Source of the DNA: Chrysophaeum taylorii
Lineage: Eukaryota; Sar; Pelagophyceae; Pelagomonadales; Pelagomonadaceae
Direction: 5' to 3'
Length of the DNA: 64,000 nt
Assembly: GCA_029834535.1 (NCBI GenBank)
Contig: JAQMWT010000011.1
Span: forward strand, 1 to 64,000
Both the position numbers and the translations under genes were made by a program. The notes beneath the pieces are model-generated. The model was not told the origin of the DNA, ran no database searches, and was given only the letters and a program-made list of their open reading frames with translations. Of this stretch, positions 2,377-22,253 are shown piece by piece. How positions within the stretch are numbered: the stretch's first letter is position 1; each line of letters begins with the position of its first letter.

Positions 2377-5300
2377 ATGGCTTCTTCTTCTTCTTCTTCG
2401 GAAGAAGTCGTCGCGATGGTCGGCTTTTTGCGGGGGGATGAGCTCCAGGCGCTCGTCAACAAGAAGACCTCGAAGGCACTTGTGCGCGCCGCGCTCAAGG
2501 GCCGCCGCCGCCGCGCGAGACTGCGAACGACGCGCGCGCGGACGCTACCCGTGCTCCGGGCCGAGGTGCGGTCCATTGCCCGAGCGGTGGGAGTATCGGA
2601 GGAGCGCGGTCTCGAGCTCCACGGGGCGCAAGGAGCCTGGGCGCTCCCTCGCCGGGGCCTCGGCGACGACAGAAATCTGGAACGGGCACTCGCCCGTCTG
2701 CCGCCGTTGCCGCGCCGAACGGTAGCGACCGTGTCCGCGCGCCTCGAGCGCAAGAGACGCCTCCTCGCCTTCGCGCGCTGGTGCCGCCACGCCCAACTCG
2801 CACGGAACGCGGCGGAATTGACAGCGTGGGTTAGGTTCGTCGCCGCGCGTCGCATCGCGCGAGCGCTGTTCCTCGCCGACGCGAGGGCGGACTTGAGTCG
2901 ATGGCGCGTCGCTACTCTCAGGGCAAAGCGCGCGACGTTTGGCGCCGCGGCGACAGCCTGCGAGCGCGTTGCGCGCGGCTTTCTCGCCCGCCGCCGCATC
3001 TCGCGCCTTCGCAGGGTTTTGGCGGCAACGGTGCTGCAGACATGGATGCGCGAGCGAGCCCGATGCTCGCTCGCCGCGCAGACCATACGACGCCGCGTCA
3101 CATGCCAATTTATATCTAACGCGCGAAGTCGTCACGGGTGTGCCGCCGCCAAGGTTCCTACTATGCAGCGAGAGGCCGACGGGCGCCGCCACTCGGCCGC
3201 TTGTGCTATCCAGCGCTCGATGCGAAAGCGTCGATGCGAGCAAACGCCGCCGCCGCCGCCGCCAGAGGAAGCGCCACCCAGGAGTGTAATTGTCGTGGAG
3301 GCGCCGGCGCCGCCGGAGCCGCCGAGCTTTTTCGAGGAAGGAGAAGTAACGGCTGCGGAGCTGCAGTTGGTCGCGCGACGCGGTGCGGTGCGGCGCCGCG
3401 CGCGAGCTGCCACGAGGCTGCAGCGGGCCTACCGAGCCTACGCGATGCGCGGCGCTGCGGTCAAGATGTGTGTCCAGCGCACCCGCCGCGGCTACGAGAC
3501 GCGCACGAGTCTGGACACCCGCGCGAGGGCAGCTGCCACTGCCTCTGCAAAGACGCTCCAGCGGACCTTCCGTGGCTACAAGGCGCGCAAACGGCACACC
3601 ATCATTGAGAAGCAGGCAAAGGCTGCGGACGCAGCGTCTGCCGAGACGCTCCAACGTTCATACCGCGGGTTCAAGGCGCGCAAACAGCACACCATCATTG
3701 AGAAGCAGGCACAGGCTGCGGTCGCAGCGTCTGCCGAGACACTCCAACGAACGTACCGCGGGTTCAAGGCGCGCAAACAGCACACCATCATTGAGAAGCA
3801 GGCAAAGGCTGCGGTCGCAGCGTCTGCCGAGACGCTCCAACGAACGTACCGCGGCTACAAGGCGCGCAAACGGCACACCATCATTGAGAAGCAGGCAAAG
3901 GCTGCGGTCGCAGCGTCTGCCGAGACGCTCCAACGAACGTACCGCGGGTTCAAGGCGCGCAAACGGCACACCATCATTGAGAAGCAGGCAAAGGCTGCGG
4001 ACGCAGCGTCTGCCGAGACGCTCCAACGTTCATACCGCGGGTTCAAGGCGCGCAAACAGCACACCATCATTGAGAAGCAGGCACAGGCTGCGGTCGCAGC
4101 GTCTGCCGAGACACTCCAACGAACGTACCGCGGGTTCAAGGCGCGCAAACAACACACCATCATTGAGAAGCAGGCAAAGGCTGCGGTCGCAGCGTCTGCC
4201 GAGACGCTCCAACGAACGTACCGCGGCTACAAGGCGCGCAAACGGCACACCATCATTGAGAAGCAGGCAAAGGCTGCGGTCGCAGCGTCTGCCGAGACGC
4301 TCCAACGAACGTACCGCGGGTTCAAGGCGCGCAAACAGCACACCATCATTGAGAAGCAGGCAAAGGCTGCGGTCGCAGCGTCTGCCGAGACGCTCCAACG
4401 AACGTACCGCGGGTTCAAGGCGCGCAAACGGCACACCATCATTGAGAAGCAGGCACAGGCTGCGGTCGCAGCGTCTGCCGAGACGCTCCAACGAACGTAC
4501 CGCGGGTTCAAGGCGCGCAAACGGCACACCATCATTGAGAAACAGGCTGCGGTCGCAGCGTCTGCCGAGACGCTCCAACGAACGTACCGCGGGTTCAAGG
4601 CGCGCAAACAGCACACCATCATTGAGAAGCAGGCACAGGCTGCGGTCGCAGCGTCTGCCGAGACGCTCCAACGAACGTACCGCGGGTTCAAGGCGCGCAA
4701 ACAGCACACCATCATTGAGAAGCAGGCAAAGGCTGCGGTCGCAGCGTCTGCCGAGACGCTCCAACGAACGTACCGCGGGTTCAAGGCGCGCAAACAGCAC
4801 ACCATCATTGAGAAGCAGGCACAGGCTGTGGTCGCAGCGTCTGCGGAGACGCTCCAACGAACGTACCGCGGGTTCAAGGCGCGCAAACAGCACACCATCA
4901 TTGAGAAGCAGGCACAGGCTGCGGTCGCAGCGTCTGCCGAGACGCTCCAACGAACGTACCGCGGGTTCAAGGCGCGCAAACAGCACACCATCATTGAGAA
5001 GCAGGCACAGGCTGTAGTCGAGGCTGGGGCGAAGAAGGTGCAGCGCGCGTATCGAGGGTTAATGATGCGCAAAAATCGGCACGCTATCGAGAAGCGGGCA
5101 AAAGAGGCCATTGAAGCTGGCGCGAAGAAGGTCCAGGGCGTATATCGGGGATTCGCGACACGCAAGCATCTGGCGATCCACGCGATCTCGACCACTGATT
5201 CCGCGGTCTTGACAGTCCGGCGCACGCGCCGCGGTTTGAAGGCAAGCAAACGGCTGGGTATCGAGGAAGAGGCGATCTCGACAGTGCAGCGCGCATATCG

Positions 5301-6645
5301 CGGTAGCCGCGACAGGGCGGTGGCGACAGTCAAGCGCGCGCGTCGTAGTTCGTCCCTCGAGCCGGTGGAGGTCGCAACGCCGAGGCACGAGGTGGCGACT
5401 CAGACGCCACCTTCAGCAGGCGTAGCCATCCAGACGACGACACCGAGGCTCGCGACGCAGACCGCGTCCACCGCAGTGGAGGTATCGTCATCGGCGACGC
5501 AAACGCTGTGGGATGTGTCGAGCTACCACGAGATGCGCGCGGCGTACGCGGCGGCGCAAGACGCGCGGCACGGAGAAGTCGCGGCCCGCATCCAGCGGGC
5601 GTGGCGACGGGGGCTGCGGGCAGTCGCGCGGGCGCGCGCGTGCGCTCGTATCCAGCGGCTCGCGCGAAAAAGGGCGCGGCGGCGCCGAGTCCGGCGCGCG
5701 CGTGCCGTGGTCGCGCTCCAGCGGCGACAGCGACGGCGCCTCGCTTCGCGAGCTGTGGAGGTCAGGCGCGCCGAAAAGCGTTGTGAAATTCGCGAGCGAC
5801 GCGTAGCCGACCGCGCGGCGGCGTACATCCAGGCGCGAGTGCGCGGATCGCTCGTGCGGATCGGCCTCTCGCTCGAGGCCGAGGACCGGCGACAAAAAGC
5901 GCGGGCTGCGCTCCGTTCGCGGCGCGAGGCGAGGGTCGTCGCGCTCCAGTGCTGGACGCGCCGGCTCGCCGCGAAGGTCGTCGCGCGCCGGTTGCGGCAA
6001 GAACGGCGCGCTGCCGACGAGGTCCGGGAAAAAGAGCTCGAACTCGAGGCCGTGCTCGACCAGATGAAACGCGAGCTCGAAGTCGAGCTGATGACGTCGC
6101 GAGTGCAGAACGCGTACCGCAGACGAATGGCGCGGCGGCGTGTCGACGCGCAGATGCGCGCCCTCGTCGACGCCGAGCGCGCGCGCGTGCTCGCGGTCAA
6201 CTTCGCGGGCGCGAGTCGGATACAGGCGCTCGCGCGAGGCGCGTACCAGCGTGCTTTGTACGCGCGGGAAAGGCCAAAGCTCGAGGAGTGCAAGATCATC
6301 CGCGACGCGCTCATCAAGATGCGCGCGCGCTCCGAGGAGGACATCCAGCGCATCGAGGCGCGCCTCGCTCACCTCGACCGTTTTGGGCCTTCGGAGTATC
6401 TCTGGAGCGGTGTCCGCAAGCACGTCCAAGAAGAGCAGGAGCCAACGGACGCCTGGATTCGAGCTTACGATGCTTCGGCTCAGGCGTACTACTACTACAA
6501 CACGATCACGGGCGAGGCGAGCTGGCTCGACCCGTCGACGCACGACACCGGTGACACCAACCCCGACGCTCTCTACGCCGCCTACGACGCCGCCTTCTGC
6601 GAGTGGCAGCAGAATTCGAATTCGACGACGGTCCGTTGGAGTTAG
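2377..6645 (+). CDS. IQ-motif repeat protein with C-terminal WW domain (1422 aa)
   Basis: A single-exon, very basic protein built around calmodulin/light-chain-binding IQ motifs of the form LQRTYRGFKARK. After a Ser-rich N-terminus (residues 1-10) come isolated IQ-like motifs (about 215-400), then 16 nearly identical 31-residue units (402-895), then more diverged IQ units (to about 990), a Thr/Val-rich spacer, further helical IQ-like segments (about 1070-1310), and a WW domain near residues 1365-1395 (W-x-RAYDA...YYYYNTITGEASW-x-DP). Architecture resembles spindle or cilium scaffold proteins with long IQ helices (ASPM-like), but the WW module at the C-terminus and absence of calponin-homology domains argue against true ASPM. 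I infer a calmodulin-regulated cytoskeletal scaffold. The ATG at 2377 is the first in frame and lies 65 bases from the divergent eL24 start. Confidence 0.85.
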   Translation: MASSSSSSEEVVAMVGFLRGDELQALVNKKTSKALVRAALKGRRRRARLRTTRARTLPVLRAEVRSIARAVGVSEERGLELHGAQGAWALPRRGLGDDRNLERALARLPPLPRRTVATVSARLERKRRLLAFARWCRHAQLARNAAELTAWVRFVAARRIARALFLADARADLSRWRVATLRAKRATFGAAATACERVARGFLARRRISRLRRVLAATVLQTWMRERARCSLAAQTIRRRVTCQFISNARSRHGCAAAKVPTMQREADGRRHSAACAIQRSMRKRRCEQTPPPPPPEEAPPRSVIVVEAPAPPEPPSFFEEGEVTAAELQLVARRGAVRRRARAATRLQRAYRAYAMRGAAVKMCVQRTRRGYETRTSLDTRARAAATASAKTLQRTFRGYKARKRHTIIEKQAKAADAASAETLQRSYRGFKARKQHTIIEKQAQAAVAASAETLQRTYRGFKARKQHTIIEKQAKAAVAASAETLQRTYRGYKARKRHTIIEKQAKAAVAASAETLQRTYRGFKARKRHTIIEKQAKAADAASAETLQRSYRGFKARKQHTIIEKQAQAAVAASAETLQRTYRGFKARKQHTIIEKQAKAAVAASAETLQRTYRGYKARKRHTIIEKQAKAAVAASAETLQRTYRGFKARKQHTIIEKQAKAAVAASAETLQRTYRGFKARKRHTIIEKQAQAAVAASAETLQRTYRGFKARKRHTIIEKQAAVAASAETLQRTYRGFKARKQHTIIEKQAQAAVAASAETLQRTYRGFKARKQHTIIEKQAKAAVAASAETLQRTYRGFKARKQHTIIEKQAQAVVAASAETLQRTYRGFKARKQHTIIEKQAQAAVAASAETLQRTYRGFKARKQHTIIEKQAQAVVEAGAKKVQRAYRGLMMRKNRHAIEKRAKEAIEAGAKKVQGVYRGFATRKHLAIHAISTTDSAVLTVRRTRRGLKASKRLGIEEEAISTVQRAYRGSRDRAVATVKRARRSSSLEPVEVATPRHEVATQTPPSAGVAIQTTTPRLATQTASTAVEVSSSATQTLWDVSSYHEMRAAYAAAQDARHGEVAARIQRAWRRGLRAVARARACARIQRLARKRARRRRVRRARAVVALQRRQRRRLASRAVEVRRAEKRCEIRERRVADRAAAYIQARVRGSLVRIGLSLEAEDRRQKARAALRSRREARVVALQCWTRRLAAKVVARRLRQERRAADEVREKELELEAVLDQMKRELEVELMTSRVQNAYRRRMARRRVDAQMRALVDAERARVLAVNFAGASRIQALARGAYQRALYARERPKLEECKIIRDALIKMRARSEEDIQRIEARLAHLDRFGPSEYLWSGVRKHVQEEQEPTDAWIRAYDASAQAYYYYNTITGEASWLDPSTHDTGDTNPDALYAAYDAAFCEWQQNSNSTTVRWS
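3580..5061 (+). repeat. 16-copy 93-bp in-frame repeat coding IQ motifs
   Basis: Sixteen head-to-tail 93-bp units encode 31 residues each (one unit, about 4519-4605, lacks two codons). Variation is confined to a few sites: Q/R after KARK, K/Q after EKQA, V/D or V/V, T/S and F/Y. Units 1-4 and 5-8 show the same order of variants, so a 372-bp block (from about 3601 and again from 3973) was duplicated as a whole. Near-identity at DNA level implies recent expansion or gene conversion. Confidence 0.95.
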
Positions 6646-13932: not shown

Positions 13933-15652
13933 TCATTTTTTCTGGATGTTGGATACTAAACGGCCCGGAAAAACGGGAAGTTCGTCGTGTGCGTCTGTCT
14001 GTCTGGAGGGTTCCAGCTTGTGACTTTGAGGGTAGACAAAAGTGACAGGTTCGCCAAAGGGGAGAAGCTTCAAGAGCGGTGCCATGGGTGACATGATACG
14101 CCGGGAAACGGTGCGTGGTATGTTTGTGCGCGAGGGCAGTCCATGAGAGCGCTGGTTGTCGGCTTGGATCTTATGCAGGAGAGCAAATGGGTGATAATAC
14201 TCAGCGGCAATAGATTTTCCTTCGATGCGTACACTGCGAAGGTTGAGGAGACGAACTACGGTGCCTCGGGTGCTTTCCTTGATAATGTTTTCAGCAAAGT
14301 TCCGCTGATGGAGGTGGCGACCAAGGATTTGGAATTGGAGACTAAGCTGCACCTCGAGGGGGTGGAAAGCTTCAGAGCGAAAAGTTGAGAAGGCATCAGA
14401 GGATATGATCTTCACATTGACATCGAATTCGACTTTGATTACGTTAACCACATAGAGGATGCCGGCCAGAACATCTTGTGCGTCTAATTTCCGTAGGAAA
14501 TAGACCCATTTGTGTGCTGAGATGATACACACGAAATGCATGATGTAACGAAATCCACCGTAGCACTTGTGGATGCTCGGGTATGACACATCCATGTGGA
14601 GGTGTTGCCCAGAAGCATAGGCCAGTTCGTCCTGTGACCAGGAAATGTTCTTGTGACGGAAGCTGACATGCGATTGACAGCGCTTGCATTCGCTGCAGTC
14701 TTGCAGATACCGATCATCACCTGGGCGGAGATTCGTTACATTAGCGGCAATCGTGCGGCGAAGAATCTCTGGTTGCTGGTGGTGTGTGCGGTGCCAGCGA
14801 GTGACCAAAAGCACTCTTTTGGCGTGCTGAGTGGTGCCGGGCTGGTGCGAGGGAGGCAGAGCGGCGGTCGAAGCGCTGGGGGGGCTGGGTCGCTTGTCGA
14901 CTCGGATTTTAGCGACGGTTGCCTCGGCAAGAAGCGTCTCGAGGTTTTTTGTCGATTTGCTTGGTGTGCGGATCGCATCATGGTGAGCATCTGCAACGGC
15001 ATTGAAGAGGGAGGTGAGGTTCAGGTCTTCCTCTGCTAGGAGACGGCTGGAGATGGCTGAGAAGAATTCTGCAACCTGGTTGATGTCTCCAGGGCTGCGG
15101 ATGCCATTGCGCATCGTGACCCATTCGACGTGAAGGTTCACGTGGTGGTGCGATTCGTGGAATGCGAGGACAGCGCTGTACTTTGCCTGCAACATGTGGT
15201 GCGGGACGGCGTTGGCCAGTGCCTTGAACGCGAAGTACGGCGGGTGCTGTTTGAATAGTCGGAGCAGTTCCGGGTCCGAGTGGTGTCCAAACTTTGCGAT
15301 TTCGTTGAGGGTCGCATAGCGGATGTGGTCTGGAGAGATCAGCAGCAAGGCATTGGAGTAGCTCGTGTTGGTGGGGTACGAGCCAGTGACCGAGTAGCAC
15401 TTGGTGCTCTTCTGAAGCGTGTCTCCGATGTGACCGACATAGTCCGCGTAAGTGGGGCGTGCTTTGGACATTAGGAGTCCCTTGGGGTCATCGAGAGCAA
15501 TTCGCCCTTGTGAGTCGATCGCGGAAAAGCCAGGATGCGAACGATTCATATAGTAGACCCAAGTGGACGGGCGCGAACAGCTGTGAGCGGCGGCCAAGGA
15601 GGTGGTATAAGCGACGACTAGAAAGGCGGTGCCCTTGGGAACATCCAGGGAA
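13933..15652 (-). pseudogene. Copia-type integrase with upstream connector
   Basis: The frame encodes an N-terminal zinc-binding H-x3-H...C-x2-C (WHRTHH to CSECKRCQ, about 14800-14690) and a DDE core: D in HMDVSYP (14590-14592), D in ISSDAF (14395-14397), and E in AENIIKES (14290-14292), about 35 residues after the second Asp as in retroviral-type integrases. The core is followed by FGEPVTFVYPQ, equivalent to the Copia FGC-x-AYV-x-VP segment. About 250 residues upstream of the zinc finger are helical and unassigned. The catalytic triad is intact, so the domain could be active if expressed, but the frame is disconnected from the methyltransferase frame and no RT follows. The protein stops at 13933. 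Confidence 0.75.
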
Positions 15653-16130
15653 AAGGAGTGCGTTGGGAGAAGACTGCGGGTTGATGGGAACAGTCCAAAA
15701 TCTGATGGGGCCTGGAATGTAGGGTGAGGGAGGCGCGCGAGAAGTATCCACATGCGACGGCAGTAGCGGCGGTGCCGATGATGGCTCCATCCAAATGGTA
15801 AGCACATTGAGACTCTGAGGCATGAAAACAGCGGATGGTGTTCCAAGCGGCGAGAGTGGGGTGTTGCGACAAATGGATGTGCAGGAGCGCGAAAACCAGG
15901 AGGTGGGATATGGACGCCATCGCGGCGTAGGGGGTACCGTCGGCATCTAGACCGAGATCCGTGAAGGGCTTGGTGAGACGTGCGAGCATTTGGCAGATGC
16001 GGGCATTTTCGGAAATCGAGACTTCCGAGGCGTTGGCGGGCTTGTAGGAGTAGGTAGCTTGTGCTGGTAGTAGTCCAATGTGGAGCGGGGCACTGTACCA
16101 CGAAGGGCGGGTTTGGCGATCCATAGATCG
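15653..16130 (-). pseudogene. Connector between methyltransferase and integrase, shifted frame
   Basis: The best protein-like frame here (SISENARICQMLARL... LVFALLHIHLSQ ... AYHLDGAIIGTAATAV) is shifted relative to both neighbours, so at least two frameshifts separate the methyltransferase from the integrase, or ribosomal shifting is used. The H-x-DGA segment is faintly like RNase H but too little remains to assign it. Confidence 0.4.
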
Positions 16131-17626
16131 TCCGGGATGGTGTGACTGGGGTCCAGGAGAGGAACCATGCTCGGAGGCGAGGTTAACCAAGGAGAGACGG
16201 TTTGCTCGAGGTTGTAGCCGGTGAGCGGGTGCCGGGCATACACAGCGAGATAGCGCGTCTTGCTGATGACGTCACCAAAAGCAGAGGCATTGTAGACGCC
16301 GGAGTGGCGGGAGTAGCACAAGCGCTGATAACCCTTGGCGAGTTGAGCATACTCGTGGTGAGTTCGGGGGTTGGGAGGTACGTTCTCGACAATGGCATAG
16401 GTCGGGAGCGTGCAACGAACGAAGCGGATTTGTTCTTTGACGAAGAGGTCGGCGGTGACCGGAGTGGCATAGCCGTCGTAGTCTTTCATTACACTCAGAT
16501 GTTGGCAGGGCAATGTGAAAACTGCCAGGTCGAATGTAGGGAGTCGTATTTTGCCGGTTTGGAGTGCGGCATTGAGTTTTCTGAGGTCCGCATAGTGCTG
16601 GACGTGCGGGAAGAGTTCTTGCGCACGGGTGCGCAGGATATCGTTGATTTCGCAGGTGACCACGACAGTAAGGCGTTTGTCGAATCGTTTGCGAAAAGTA
16701 TCGAAACCTTCCTGGTGGAGTCCACCTGCAATAATGGCTGTTTTGAGCAGAGGGGTTTGTGACTGCGCAGAGAGGTCTGCTGAGCCATTGAAGGCGTAGT
16801 GGACGACAGGATGTTGGAGGTTGAGCAGTTCGTTGAGATACAGAGAATGGTTTTGTAACTTCGCGAAGTCAAGCATGTGCGATTGTGAGCGTGTCTTTGC
16901 GACATGCTGTGTGATGTGTGCAATCTCATCCTTGAGTGACATTCGTTGTCTTGTGTGAAAACTGACCACAGTGGCGAATGTTTGCTTTGGATGGGATGGC
17001 AGGGACAACAGGCCGTTTGGCTTGCGAGTGGCAAGTACGACGGCGGTCTTTCCTATAAGTGTTGCATAATCGTGGGGGTCTGAGGTTGAGGACTTGAGAA
17101 GCTCGTAGAGGTAGGGCTCGTGGGGCAGTGGCGGGTCGGTTGCTTGTACATGCAGAGCTTTGAGCTGAGATGTTGCGATAACTTGAAGACCTTGCCTGAA
17201 TTGCGGGACTACCATAAATACGAGACATAAAGCGTAACCGGTTTTGTCGTGTGTATCCTTTGAAGATGGACCTGCAGCCTGCAGATACAACGGTTTAACA
17301 CCGATGAAGTGGCTGGTGAGAGTGCCTCGTCCCATATGAATGGTGTGTTCGGGAATTCGGCGTATGGTCTCAGGAACAAAATTTTGAATTGTGCGCGTAA
17401 AGCAAAAAGATGCGCCACCGTCAATCAAGGAGGTTTCGGTGCCGGGTCCATTGCATCCGTGCAGCGAGTTAGTCTTCTTTGAGGTCTTTTCTGGGGTGTA
17501 AGCTGCACAAAGAAAATCTGCGACTCTTGGGGAAATAGTTGATGAGGTCGGGAAATTCGTCATCTTGAGGTTTGGTGCCTGATGAAGTAAGATGTGGTTG
17601 GCGGCACAGGCGTCGTCGGCAACCAT
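15947..17626 (-). CDS. Retroelement protease plus cytosine-5 DNA methyltransferase
   Basis: A 559-codon open frame. Residues 65-75 read SLIDGGASF, the active-site loop of a Copia-type aspartic protease (usually D-S-G-A). From about residue 290 a cytosine-5 methyltransferase domain follows: motif I-like IIAGGLHQEGF (SAM-binding glycines), VVTCEIND (acidic residue binding the SAM ribose, motif II), ADLRKL (motif III), FTLPCQHLSV with the catalytic Cys (motif IV, PCQ at 16502-16510), YAIVENV (motif VI, ENV at 16379-16387) and FGDVISKTRYLAVYA (motif VIII-like). The C-terminal motifs IX-X are not clear. All main catalytic residues (PCQ, ENV) are intact. Such domains are known in a few algal and dinoflagellate retrotransposons; I infer a self- or host-methylating role. 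The C-terminal 50 residues are probably out of the true frame. Confidence 0.8.
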   Translation of the reverse strand: MVADDACAANHILLHQAPNLKMTNFPTSSTISPRVADFLCAAYTPEKTSKKTNSLHGCNGPGTETSLIDGGASFCFTRTIQNFVPETIRRIPEHTIHMGRGTLTSHFIGVKPLYLQAAGPSSKDTHDKTGYALCLVFMVVPQFRQGLQVIATSQLKALHVQATDPPLPHEPYLYELLKSSTSDPHDYATLIGKTAVVLATRKPNGLLSLPSHPKQTFATVVSFHTRQRMSLKDEIAHITQHVAKTRSQSHMLDFAKLQNHSLYLNELLNLQHPVVHYAFNGSADLSAQSQTPLLKTAIIAGGLHQEGFDTFRKRFDKRLTVVVTCEINDILRTRAQELFPHVQHYADLRKLNAALQTGKIRLPTFDLAVFTLPCQHLSVMKDYDGYATPVTADLFVKEQIRFVRCTLPTYAIVENVPPNPRTHHEYAQLAKGYQRLCYSRHSGVYNASAFGDVISKTRYLAVYARHPLTGYNLEQTVSPWLTSPPSMVPLLDPSHTIPDDLWIAKPALRGTVPRSTLDYYQHKLPTPTSPPTPRKSRFPKMPASAKCSHVSPSPSRISV

Positions 17627-17850: not shown

Positions 17851-18360
17851 CTGGAGGAATTCGGCGGCGTCACGCCGACCCCGTCGCTGTTTTTCTCACG
17901 GAGGCCAACCTTGATCAAGAGGAAGACAATGACCTCATTCACCAACTCCACGCCTACCGCAAGAAGCAAACTTCGCGGCACCTCAAAAAGCCCCCTCCAG
18001 GCAAAAAGCCTCCTAATCCTCGCTCCCCGTCTTACTACGACGTCAATGACAGTCCTAAGCCCAAGGCCACCCCTGTCACCCCACCGAAGAAAATGCACCG
18101 TCCCCGCGCTCCTCCTGTCACCCCTGACAAACGCGAGCACCCGCATCTTTTTTCTTCGCAAGGTCACCTTCCCCACACAACCTCATCCACCCTAACCATC
18201 TACTCCAGACCAACGCTTCAAGGTCCCCCTTCGTGAAGTCCGTCGCAAGCTCCAAACCATACGGAATCTTAGCCAAGCCGGTCGCCAACATACGTCCAGC
18301 TCCGAGCGCATGAACAAGCTAATCAACCTCATCACCACAATTTCCGATGAGATACTTCTT
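17851..18360 (+). mobile_element. Inverted retroelement segment, coding on the opposite strand
   Basis: Between the minus-strand gag and pol frames lies about 500 bases that read as good protein only on the plus strand: first DPVAVFLTEANLDQEEDND, a Lys/Pro-rich tract (KKPPPGKKPPNPRSPSYY), then in another frame VPLREVRRKLQTIRNLSQ and ERMNKLINLITTISDEILL. Both flanks are minus-strand coding. The simplest reading is a local inversion or an insertion of a second related element in the opposite direction. Confidence 0.5.
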
Positions 18361-19807
18361 TCCGAAATTCAACGGGGTCCGGTGGGGTGTCGTCTTCAGA
18401 GGGAGAGGTGTCACCATCGTCTTCGGTGAGGTGGAGACCATGACGGCGGGAGCGAAAGCGGGGGTTGTCTTTGTCCTTTGTTGGCAGACGACCGAAGTCG
18501 GTGACGAAGCGTAAAGGCTTGAAGTTGAGAGTTGGGTGAGGCTTGAGGTGAGCCCAATCAAGCCTCACCCAAAAGTTGCGCTCAAACGTGGAAATGACGG
18601 TGATGCGAACGATGAGCTTAGGAAGGTGGTGGATGGCTTCCTTGTCTTCGTAGAGTAACAGCGAGTCGTTGGGATTGCGCAGACAGTTGGCAAGACGTGC
18701 AAAGCCCTTGATGTGTGTTGGGGCGCGGGAGTCAAGCAAGCTTGGGGGGTACTTGAAGCCGAGAATTTGGTGAATTTCTTCGATGGTCTTGTCGTCGGGA
18801 AGTTGGAGAGAAGCGTCCGTGGTGATCTGGCGCAGTTGCTGCTGGACATGACGCATGTAGTCGATGTAGTGAGCTGGTTCATGTATTCCAGGGTTGAACG
18901 GCGTGTCCAGAAAGGCATTGTAAACATAATGCGCGTGGTGGATGTGGTTCTGGCCCGCGTGCTTGTCGAGTGCTAGGCGAACTTGAAGCACGAATTCGAG
19001 TCCTATCGGGTCGGTGGATCCGAGTGCATCGATTTCGTCGTATGCTGGGTGCTTGACGGAGTCGCTACCGGCATGTAGGAAACGGTGAAATAGGGGGTAT
19101 ACGGTCTCGCGGAGATATACGATGAAGTTGAGTGATCAGATATAACTTGCATTTTGTCATATCGGTCGGGTCCTTGTCTTGGTCTTTGAGTTCTTGGAGC
19201 TTTGGCTCGTGTTGTCCAGGAAGTGCCTGCCGAACTTGCGGTAGACACCCTTGTAGTAGACGTAACGGCCTTGGAAATCTGGCGTGTTCCCGGCGGTAGA
19301 GTGGTTGTCGGGGTCCTTTTCGTATTCGTCGATACAGTGGCTTAGGAGAGCGTCAGCGAGATCGTTAGATCCGCGCAGGACGGATTCCCACGTGTAGAGG
19401 CCCTGTAGGAAGTACTGAGTTATGCCTGTTTCCGGCATCAGATGTTCGACGAACAATTGCATGACGCGAAATGAAAGCATCTGGGGTGTGACTTGAGCGT
19501 TGTCCATCGACTTGAGGACGGCGCTAGGGGGGTCAGTAAAGGTGTTAACCTTGGACTTGGGATCTTGTTGAGCCGGAGTGGGAGGCGGAGCCGCAGCAGC
19601 GACGGCAGGTGGTGGTGCTTGCGTTGCTTGCACTTGGGTGGCCAACGCGCTTAATTGAGCATTGAATTGGGCCATCAAGCGAGTTTCTTGGTCTTGCATC
19701 TCTTGTTTATGCCGAGCTTCGTACGCTTGAGCTTGTTGTTGCATGTCTCTTTTGAAACGAACTTCTTGTTCTTTCATCTCCTTCTGGAGTTCTTGATTGG
19801 TTGGCAT
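18332..19807 (-). pseudogene. Gag-like protein of the retroelement, frameshifted
   Basis: ATG at 19807 opens a frame with a coiled coil rich in Gln/Glu/Lys (about residues 5-65), a Pro/Ala linker, and a globular part with SFRVMQLFVEHLMPETG; the frame ends at 19157. The continuation lies in another frame: FIVYLRETVYPLFHRFLHAG, then LALDKHAGQNHIHHAHYVYN through DFGRLPTKDKDNPRF to about 18370. At least one frameshift near 19160-19110 breaks the gene. The overall design (coiled coil, then helical globular domain) fits Copia-type gag, and no zinc knuckle is visible. Confidence 0.55.
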
Positions 19808-19880: not shown

Positions 19881-20150
19881 GTGCCCAATACCTAGAGAAC
19901 AGTAATCACAACTGTGTTGCCCTTCAGCAGAGCGTGAGAACAGTGGTAGTATGTCCTCGAATCTGTCTCTTAATCGAGGACAGCCGGTGTGAATAACACA
20001 GCGTTTTCTTAAATCAACGAGTTGAGAGGCGCAGACTTTATATTTTCCCCAGTACCCATACATCTGCTTTTTTGATATACACGTCTTCTTTATGATACTT
20101 AGAGCTCCACTGACGTAGACTCTAGATTTGTTTTGTGGAGCCACGGCTCG

Positions 20151-20280
20151 TCAGGTCTTTAAAGGTCGACTGCTAAGAGGGGGGTGTGTGTGTGGTGCAT
20201 GAAGGATGTGGGTGGTTTCGCGGGGTAGGAGGGGTGTGCCTGACGGGCGTAGATGTGGCTGGTCAGGTAGTTAGTTAGTT
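20151..20280. other. LTR-flank segment, shared with array unit 8
   Basis: GT-rich stretch with GTTA repeats near 20265-20278. Its part at about 20176-20256 recurs, inverted, at 34481-34550 inside the last unit of the helicase tandem array. No gene. Confidence 0.5.
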
Positions 20281-20956
20281 ATATTTGCATGGGGGGTGTG
20301 AGGGGCTCATAGCCGTGGCACGCTTGAAGTAGTGGTGTGAGTGCGAGCATCTCGTGCTTGGTGTCGTATAGCGCGATATCTTTTGTCTCGTGGACTTTGG
20401 CCGCAGTGTCTTGCGGTTCGCACCGCAACAACGGTGACGTTGTATATGACGACGATGGCCTCCGGTATGATGCAGATCACAAGATCTTTGTTTCGTGGAC
20501 TTTGGCAGCTGGGTCTTGCGGTTCTCGCCGCAACAAAAGATGATACCCATACATATCCATACAGACGATGGCCCCCGCCATGGTGCAGCCTCCGCCCTGC
20601 GACGCGATCGCGAGTCCCACGCATTTCTTACGCTCGGCGTTGTGACCCCAACGCTGGCGACGCTTGTGCCAGGTCGCGATCGCCGTAGAGGTTGGCGACT
20701 GGTCCCGTCGCGCCGCACCGTGGTTGTCATCCACTACCTGGTTGTCATCCTCGCATTCATTCACCGCATCATTTTCGCCGGTGGTGGTGAACGCATTGTC
20801 GTCTTTGGCTGCGATCGTGGAACGTGCGTCGCCGGGACTTGCCACGTTGCATTCCTCGTCCTTGCACCTCGTGGCGACCGCAGCCTGGTTGTCATAATCG
20901 AATTCATCTACGGCATCACTTTCGCTGCCTGTGCCGAGCTTGCGTCTCTCCCTTGA
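20281..20956 (-). pseudogene. Unassigned coding relic with internal tandem duplication
   Basis: Minus-strand frames give protein-like sequence: acidic DDNQVVDDNH tract, then GLAIASQGGGCTMAG, MYGYHLLLRREPQD, and a repeated block EPQD-x-AAKVHETK occurring twice about 100 bases apart (around 20490-20535 and 20390-20435). The second copy continues as DIALYDTKHEMLALTPLLQA to a stop at 20281-20283. A stop after the first copy means either an intron or decay. I do not recognise the family. Confidence 0.4.
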
Positions 20957-21049
20957 TCGCGGGAGAGACCGACTCCTCTCCCCTTGAAGTTGGAACCTTG
21001 CTCAAACATGCCGTTTAACGGCTAGCTTCACGGAACCACATCACCAGGA

Positions 21050-21370
21050 GTTCCGGATGAACTGGATCTCGGACCGGCTCGACCAGCTCTACAAACTCGA
21101 GGACCCTCCTCACAACTTGCGCATTGTGGCCACTCCCCAAAACTTCGCCGACTTTCGCGCGGCCTCCCGGTCGGAGAACGCCCGCGCAGCCAAAAGGCAA
21201 AGGACCTCTTCCTGAAGTGTCTCTGCTCAGCCGCGGTTCTCCCTCCTCGTTTGCCCCCGAGTTCGGGATGAACAACTGGATCTCGGACTGCCTCGACCAG
21301 CTCCACGAGCTCTAGGACCCTCCTCGCAACTTGCGCATTCTTTCCACTCCCCAAACCTTCGCTTCAAGAG
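21050..21370 (+). repeat. Two direct repeats of about 105 bp
   Basis: A segment starting GTTCCGGATGAAC-x-TGGATCTCGGAC is present at about 21050-21160 and again at 21261-21370, differing by a 3-base insertion and scattered changes. The first copy is open as MNWISDRLDQLYKLEDPPHN-like protein of 52 residues; the second has a stop in the middle. This looks like a duplicated exon fragment of an unknown protein. Confidence 0.5.
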
Positions 21371-22253
21371 CGCGCTCCTCAAGACTCAAGAAAAAGTGAA
21401 AAGCCAACGGCTCCGACATAACGGCGTGATTTTCGTTGTCGCAGGTAGAGAACCTGTCAACGGCTCGCACGACGTATGTTTTCGACCGTTCTCGGAATCT
21501 TTTTCAGACGTTATTGGCAACGGCTAGCAGTTGCATAATTCAAAATTGTCAACGGCTAGCTTTATACGACAAAAAAATAAAATCGCGAAAGCGATTGGAA
21601 CGTCAAACATACCGAAATTTTGTATTCGGACTAACAATACATACCGATATTTTGTATATTCGTACTAACATTTACGTCCGTTTCGGCGTCCGTTTTGAGT
21701 ACTTTTCAGTATATGAGGACACCAATGGCCTCCGATTATTTATGTATGGGTATGTATAAGGTGGCAAAGTTAAGTGAGTTCACTAATCCTATATATAATA
21801 GGAGATACTAACCTTAATTCAGATTTTCTGTCTCTGACGAGTTAAAAATCGTATTATGGTGTTCATTCCACCTCCTCTTCACCTCCATCTCCCCAAGTCA
21901 ATTTTTTTTTCGAGCTTTCTTTCGCCATACGGCTCCATCCAGAATGCTCTACATATTCTTGTTGATGGCAAAGTTCTACCTGCTTACAATTTAGTCCAGA
22001 TTTCGCTCAATTTTTGAAAGCCTAGAAAACTCCCATCTAGGGTTATTATTATCACACCACGCACTAAAAAAAAATCAGAAATCACTATGTTATACAACAC
22101 ACCGTGCTGTCCTTCCTTGAAAGAGCCTGGGACCTCGGAATGAAGAGAAACTAAAAAGAGACCTCTTTATCATCATCACCATCATCACCGAAGGGGTCCT
22201 CGCGACAATTGCGGCCCCAGGGGTCGTCCTAGCCTTGCCTAGGCTCGCCTAGG
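21371..22253. other. AT-rich intergenic stretch
   Basis: No gene seen. The motif AACGGCT(A/C)GC recurs near 21018, 21459, 21519 and 21551, and a related copy near 21406. The rest is AT-rich, with ATC-type runs near 22165-22190 before the LUC7-like gene's 3' end. Confidence 0.5.

Follow-up and report, generated by a model that had tools for sequence, protein, structure and literature searches.

An open reading frame in the window, the 64-kb stretch of contig C11 analysed here from a 70.8 Mb assembly, raises the question of whether a retrotransposon has made a DNA methyltransferase part of its polyprotein. A sequence-only reading had described the frame as the fusion of an aspartic-protease loop, IDGGAS, to a methyltransferase with PCQ, ENV and SAM-binding motifs inside a Copia-like element. 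The frame itself was recovered by an ORF check (15947-17626, minus strand, 559 aa), and IDGGAS, PCQ, ENV and a motif I-like AGG are all present in it. The methyltransferase, however, is incomplete in this frame and runs on to about 15200. The proposed comparison with the Pfam DNA_methylase profile (PF00145) gave a match with an E value of 1.3e-6 (28.5 bits, cut-off 22), and the corresponding score for C96, the copy to which the window was compared, was 35.3 bits (cut-off 22). Scanned singly, 9 of 11 copies matched the profile (E 0.01). Only about the N-terminal half of the profile is covered by the match, and the domain has an unusual motif I.

The domain in the window occupies 15170-16740 on the minus strand, with approximate ends placed from PF00145, the alignment to C96 and the motif positions, motifs IX and X being taken from 11 copies. 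Under the names used for cytosine-5 methyltransferases (IV, VI, VIII, IX and X), the sequence contains motif IV (FTLPCQ) at 16502-16519, motif VI (IVENV) at 16379-16393, motif VIII (KTR) at 16247-16267, motif IX at 15289-15318 and just above, and motif X at 15202-15222, all on the minus strand, as is the motif I-like AGG at 16703-16738. Frameshifts near 16.06-16.10 and 15.62-15.67 kb break the enzyme; the 559-aa frame stops at a frameshift, and the remainder, which includes motifs IX and X, continues in two other frames to about 15200. These last two motifs (RYATLNE and ANAVP, about 300 residues downstream, at about 780-836 of the C96 pol) were located by eye and through the alignment with a second family, B, described below. 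RCFHASES and TGTAAT were rejected as candidates for them, since the family B comparison points to RYATLNE and ANAVP. Modelled from its single sequence, the methyltransferase piece of the window gave an unusable structure (pLDDT 31).

The window copy is a dead element, with a split LTR, an inverted piece of gag, frameshifts in the enzyme, and neither reverse transcriptase (RT) nor 3' LTR. The inner part of its 5' LTR (C96 LTR positions 87-208) is at 19893-20014 on the minus strand (blastn, 97.5% to the C96 LTR). The outer part of the same LTR lies at 21759-21836, also minus, with its outer end placed by eye; it aligns collinearly to the C96 LTR in two blocks, one of 19 bp and exact (E 4e-5), the other of 20 bp at 90% (E 0.62, weak by itself). 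The two parts are separated by about 1.74 kb of other sequence (20015-21758), in which we looked for long inverted repeats and saw none. The gag region (C96 element positions 715-1933) follows at 18368-19567, minus strand, with 90% blastn identity to C96; neither the window copy nor C96 gave a Pfam gag match in this region. A 495-bp piece from the 3' part of gag, 95% identical to C96 by blastn, is inverted and occupies 17872-18366 on the plus strand. On the minus strand, the pol start and the protease-like region cover 17017-17626 (lower bound approximate, assigned from the sequence), with IDGGAS at 17408-17425, and the pol ATG overlaps the gag stop (TGATG). The integrase (14130-14830, minus strand, ends approximate) contains CSECKRC at 14677-14697, aspartates within 14584-14601 and 14389-14406, and a glutamate within 14284-14301. 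Similarity to the C96 element ends at 14003 at the DNA level and at 13963 at the protein level (13963-14003, minus strand). Compared with C96, the copy lacks everything beyond an element position of about 6.3 kb, including RT, RNase H and the 3' LTR. Elsewhere in the window, a frame at 2377-6645 encodes 1422 aa and contains IQ motifs together with a WW domain.

The search for further genome copies, which the earlier reading had suggested, returned at least 90 places matching the 559-aa frame (78 scored of 734 candidates). Three contig pairs (C10/C297, C25/C521 and C93/C36) gave identical match rows, suggesting duplicates or second haplotypes; copy counts are therefore inflated and do not represent independent insertions. 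We retrieved ten copies together with their flanking sequence and searched them for LTRs. LTR pairs of about 193-208 bp were found in six of these ten (C96, C104, C514, C681, C4 and C315) and bound elements of 9.1-9.8 kb; two others (C314 and C524) had only shorter repeats at LTR-like distances, and the flanked copies of C582 and C668 yielded no LTR pair. The LTRs end in TAGAGA...TCTCTA, not TG...CA, and diverge by 2.0-5.6% within pairs. Exact 5-bp target duplications flank five copies (CTCAC, AACGC, GTATA, GTCAT and GTTAG), and C104, in which the LTR start is changed, has the duplication TATCC provided that TT is assumed for the first bases of its LTR.

The order of domains in this family, A, is gag, protease-like region, methyltransferase, integrase and reverse transcriptase. 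In C96 an upstream gag frame terminates at the pol ATG, and pol is a single frame of 1952 aa with matches to DNA_methylase at residues 349-475 (1.1e-7), to rve at 1016-1110 (0.006, under the cut-off) and to RVT_2, the Copia-type RT, at 1686-1933 (1.6e-38; 9.1e-40 in C104). The integrase precedes the RT in the C96 pol, as in Copia. An RNase H-like sequence, recognised by eye, follows after one stop in C96 and had no Pfam match. The RT box is SVDG in C96 versus SVDD in 5/5 other family A copies with sequence; given this box and the stop before RNase H, we do not claim that C96 is active.

Identification of the integrase leans on the spacing D-x64-D-x34-E in C96, because rve scores stay under the cut-off (0.034 for the window copy, 7e-4 on the C96 piece). 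The two aspartates and the glutamate are kept in 9/9, 9/9 and 8/8 copies with sequence, bearing out the claim that an integrase follows on the same strand. In a genome search the rve profile gave at least 150 matches among those listed, seemingly from another repeat. The active site of retropepsins is D-[ST]-G. Here, the loop reads DGGA in 16/16 copies with sequence and the region had no Pfam protease match; its place and motif suggest that it is a protease.

Taken with the LTRs and 5-bp duplications, the RVT_2 match after the integrase upholds the assignment to Copia, and the notable position described for the methyltransferase, between the protease-like region and the integrase, recurs in repeated copies. 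We are highly confident, on these sequence comparisons, that the family is a Copia-type LTR retrotransposon carrying a C5 methyltransferase in Pol between those two regions, and that the window copy is a dead member of it. That a host methyltransferase gene dropped by chance into one element copy has a probability close to nil: the shared order in repeated copies refutes it and makes the domain part of the repeated element. Nor is the domain related to the DNMT5 and DNMT2 of the host, and the purifying selection described below likewise speaks against a chance insertion.

The presence of the domain across copies was assessed from the RT. At least 120 RT matches were found in the genome (116 scored of 1497 candidates), and the best 54 were considered. 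Among the matches listed for the 559-aa frame and for PF00145, a methyltransferase match lies within 7.5 kb upstream in 28 of these 54; of the remaining 26, 12 were examined at the expected place, where the methyltransferase was present in eight and missing in four (L037, L038, L043 and L044). L043 belongs to another Copia family.

That second family, B (L043, L060 and L061), is very uniform, with many rows 98% identical in RT. Its RT is about 35% identical to that of family A and gave at least 130 matches (all those scored of 1920 candidates) that were 93-100% identical to the query, a uniformity which suggests that family B is young. A single copy, C367, was examined, and upstream of its integrase a stretch of 200 aa contains PPCT, EMTPP and QSRER, followed by RYPTRPE and NALP; ENV is replaced by EMT, while Cys, Glu and QSRER are kept. 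The stretch is collinear with the family A methyltransferase: its first piece scored 69 against a maximum of 58 in 500 shuffles, and its second piece scored 65, a value reached in 1 of 500 shuffles. BLASTP against the family A methyltransferase gave 4e-4 and 0.001. The stretch reached 0.031 in Pfam (under the cut-off) and 0.13 in PHROG, and profile comparison of the two families was weak (0.032 and 0.46).

The family B stretch matches at least 151 places in the genome (150 scored of 1069 candidates). Using 56 of the 151 rows, from contigs also bearing RT rows, we found it 3.3-4.3 kb upstream in at least 23 of the top 50 family B RT rows. The stretch and the part following it are in different frames in C367; in C42 the listed frame length of 1691 aa is identical for stretch and RT, which probably means one shared frame. 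From these sequence similarities, we take the stretch to be the same domain, diverged and perhaps weaker in catalysis. Since the corresponding position in family B holds this diverged form of the enzyme, the capture looks old, and the methyltransferase probably predates the split of the two Copia families.

Median pairwise dN/dS, with pairs of dS outside 0.03-0.8 excluded in all regions, was 0.228 for methyltransferase motifs I-VIII (20 copies, 133 pairs), 0.223 for the middle part of the enzyme (21 copies, 176 pairs) and 0.263 for the C-terminal part with motifs IX and X (11 copies, 54 pairs). The values for the other regions were 0.138 for the protease-like region (17 copies, 102 pairs), 0.176 for gag (12 copies, 59 pairs), 0.081 for integrase (9 copies, 36 pairs) and 0.146 for RT (9 rows, 28 pairs; one row, C582, is a family B RT). 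The methyltransferase is under purifying selection, somewhat looser than that on RT and integrase. All of these values are well under 1, and the enzyme has been retained by selection during element replication.

Selection of this kind could also act on a domain that has no more need to methylate and instead binds DNA or RNA as a module of the polyprotein, helping to package the element, to bind cDNA or to choose the target, while only some lineages retain catalysis. A dN/dS above that of RT and integrase would fit such a module, as would the PPCT, and the EMT in place of ENV, of the copy read from family B, which is uniform and has many matches. The residues kept in family A argue the other way. 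The full PCQ of motif IV is present in 17/20 copies and its cysteine in 19/20 (L045 has it within a shifted stretch, L041 has a serine); the glutamate of motif VI is present in 17/19 copies with sequence; and motifs IX and X are nearly unchanged, with the motif IX arginine in 10/11 copies and NAVP in 11/11. Even the family B copy retains Cys, Glu and QSRER, and we regard a purely binding role as rather doubtful.

A catalytic methyltransferase could have come from the host or from elsewhere. The genome search with PF00145 gave at least 57 matches (123 scored of 474 candidates), 38 of which coincide with matches of the 559-aa frame or are at most 1.6 kb away from one. Two of the 57 are host genes, namely DNMT2 on contig C634 (L033; PDB 1g55, 3.9e-39) and DNMT5 on contig C621 (L034 and L049; PDB 7r76, 3e-143), whose frame of 2086 aa also shows SNF2-like motifs on visual inspection. 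PDB 7r76, labelled Rad8 in the table, we take to be Cryptococcus DNMT5. Eight of the other 17 matches were examined, and all eight are element copies. No DNMT1, DNMT3 or DNMT6 was recognised among the matches examined. A genome search with the DNMT1-RFD profile gave no match, but the control genomes gave none either. One SRA and five MBD domain matches are present in the host genome. DNMT6 is known from Pelagophyceae and other ochrophytes according to the available part of one report (PMC9998398).

Capture of host DNMT5 or DNMT2 was rejected as the source, as neither is the closest relative when compared with a phage enzyme. In hhalign, profile A1 matched a caudovirus DNA methyltransferase at 4e-8, versus 0.84 for host DNMT5 and 0.14 for host DNMT2; BLASTP with the same element protein gave 2e-13 for the caudovirus enzyme, versus 0.090 and 0.37 for the two host enzymes, respectively. 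The caudovirus enzyme is also the best tblastn match among phages (2e-6) and the closest outside relative found, and PHROG 363 (5.5e-9) and PHROG 116 (6.1e-8) also match. A phmmer search of the element enzyme against all PDB chains returned nothing, and profile A1 against all PDB chains returned just a single cytosine methyltransferase, with an E value of 0.6. Scans of viral and prokaryotic contigs turned up nothing related to the methyltransferase or to the RTs used as queries, and plasmids gave only weak matches (best listed E 0.01). These comparisons support descent from a C5 enzyme like those of prokaryotes or phages, not from host DNMT5 or DNMT2.

This ancestry also bears on the substrate. 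DNMT2 acts on tRNA, and in the portion of the Symbiodinium study available to us the SymbioLINE enzyme methylated no DNA in yeast, with RNA suggested instead (PMC5890265); by analogy, the present enzyme could methylate RNA, either the genomic RNA of the element or the primer tRNA, and not DNA. Its nearest relatives found are annotated phage DNA methyltransferases, however, and it does not resemble host DNMT2, which makes an RNA substrate quite unlikely.

The host is probably an ochrophyte. The assembly includes a plastid contig with psaA/psaB, and the entries nearest in the PsaB ranking are, presumably, partly cryptophyte, red-algal and diatom. The plastid rpl36 encodes a 37-aa protein of the p-type; c-type rpl36 occurs in haptophyte and cryptophyte plastids, as far as the available text of PMC1570145 goes. 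The p-type rpl36 together with DNMT5 fits an ochrophyte host, and these features, with the PsaB ranking, are consistent with the stramenopile alga suggested by the sequence-only reading. Ribosomal L36 has a further match, 43 residues long, off the plastid contig at C323:117528-117656.

In base composition, the CpG observed/expected ratio was 1.01-1.04 in six elements versus 1.03-1.30 in their flanks. C/T differences among 28 pairs of eight copies were 0.108 at CpG, 0.105 at CpT, 0.080 at CpC and 0.063 at CpA. Within LTR pairs they affected 6/69 CpG versus 18/430 other C sites, too few to decide. Weak CpG decay of this kind neither shows nor excludes methylation, because coding constraint and age confound it; self-methylation or escape from silencing, as suggested in the sequence-only reading, is a conjecture.

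For the element as a whole, we propose, with about an even chance of being right, that the window holds a dead copy of a Copia element whose methyltransferase is selected, phage-like and old, and that the enzyme acts on new cDNA. It would be packaged in the virus-like particle together with RT and integrase and would methylate fresh double-stranded cDNA de novo, such that new copies would already be marked on entering the genome. Host DNMT5, termed a maintenance methyltransferase in the accessible part of PMC10538959, would afterwards maintain the marks. The benefit might be cDNA that resembles host DNA, or a chromatin state set at insertion. The same marks could also serve self-restraint, with the element labelling new copies for silencing, lessening harm to the host and gaining in the long run. 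In a diatom, full-length Copia elements are expressed more strongly when DNMT5 is lost (PMC9998398, from the sections available), and the idea was raised in the Symbiodinium study (PMC5890265, likewise). Family B has the domain yet exists in many near-identical copies, so no restraint is evident, and we consider self-restraint improbable.

A broader picture may be drawn, which we offer only tentatively: a whole deep clade of algal Copia elements might owe its C5 methyltransferase to one capture, from a prokaryote or a phage, that preceded the split of families A and B, and might supply de novo methylation where DNMT5 is the host's only DNA C5 methyltransferase of its own. Should the host be without DNMT1 and DNMT3, the source of new methylation in such genomes would become directly testable. 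The element may thereby illustrate how transposable DNA deals with the marks on its host's DNA, or is even a source of them.

Published retrotransposons with DNMTs comprise LINE and DIRS elements of Symbiodinium and a Gypsy element of Klebsormidium, whereas Symbiodinium Copia lacks a DNMT domain, and de novo CG methylation by a retrotransposon DNMT has been demonstrated for a Symbiodinium element (PMC5890265, in its available text). As far as these sources show, the present element differs from the published cases, in line with the sequence-only reading, which had placed them in a dinoflagellate and a charophyte alga. A later paper that cites this work names "LTR Copia and DIRS" in its accessible part (PMC12344493), which conflicts with the Gypsy assignment in PMC5890265. 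DAM- and DCM-encoding Gypsy/DIRS elements occur in stramenopiles among others, with the part available of PMC6338049 leaving unspecified which enzyme occurs where. Our literature search, which had most subscription journals and bioRxiv outside its coverage, returned no paper reporting, in its title or displayed abstract, a stramenopile Copia with a C5 methyltransferase, and the available portions of PMC9998398 and PMC3145265 mention no DNMT within a stramenopile retrotransposon. Copia would join LINE, DIRS and Gypsy as carriers of cytosine methyltransferases, in a probable ochrophyte and with an enzyme of other origin; such repeated capture by unrelated elements argues for a transposition advantage from the enzyme.

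Judged from the available parts of the sources, a close parallel is KnitGypsy-Dnmt3 of Klebsormidium nitens, which likewise has a C5 methyltransferase in the Pol of an LTR element, repeated copies and purifying selection; it is a Gypsy element with a Dnmt3, whereas the present element is a Copia with a phage-like enzyme that had no sequence match to any solved DNMT3 (PMC5890265). SymbioDIRS-Dnmt3 and SymbioLINE-Dnmt of Symbiodinium are similar as C5 methyltransferases borne by retrotransposons in an alga, and the SymbioLINE enzyme is, like the present one, of an orphan lineage. They differ in being DIRS and LINE elements, with the DNMT in the ORF of the RT or in an upstream ORF (PMC5890265). 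DIRS elements with Dam-like enzymes also combine a DNA methyltransferase with a retrotransposon, but theirs is a structurally unrelated adenine enzyme in another element class (PMC5890265, PMC6338049). The Copia-like CoDi elements of diatoms share the superfamily and its occurrence in ochrophyte algae, and in P. tricornutum their methylation depends on DNMT5; no methyltransferase domain is mentioned for them in the available text (PMC9998398, PMC3145265). Among all of these, the present family is the first Copia case that we found, with a phage-like enzyme, signs of an old capture and a putative role in marking the element's own new copies.
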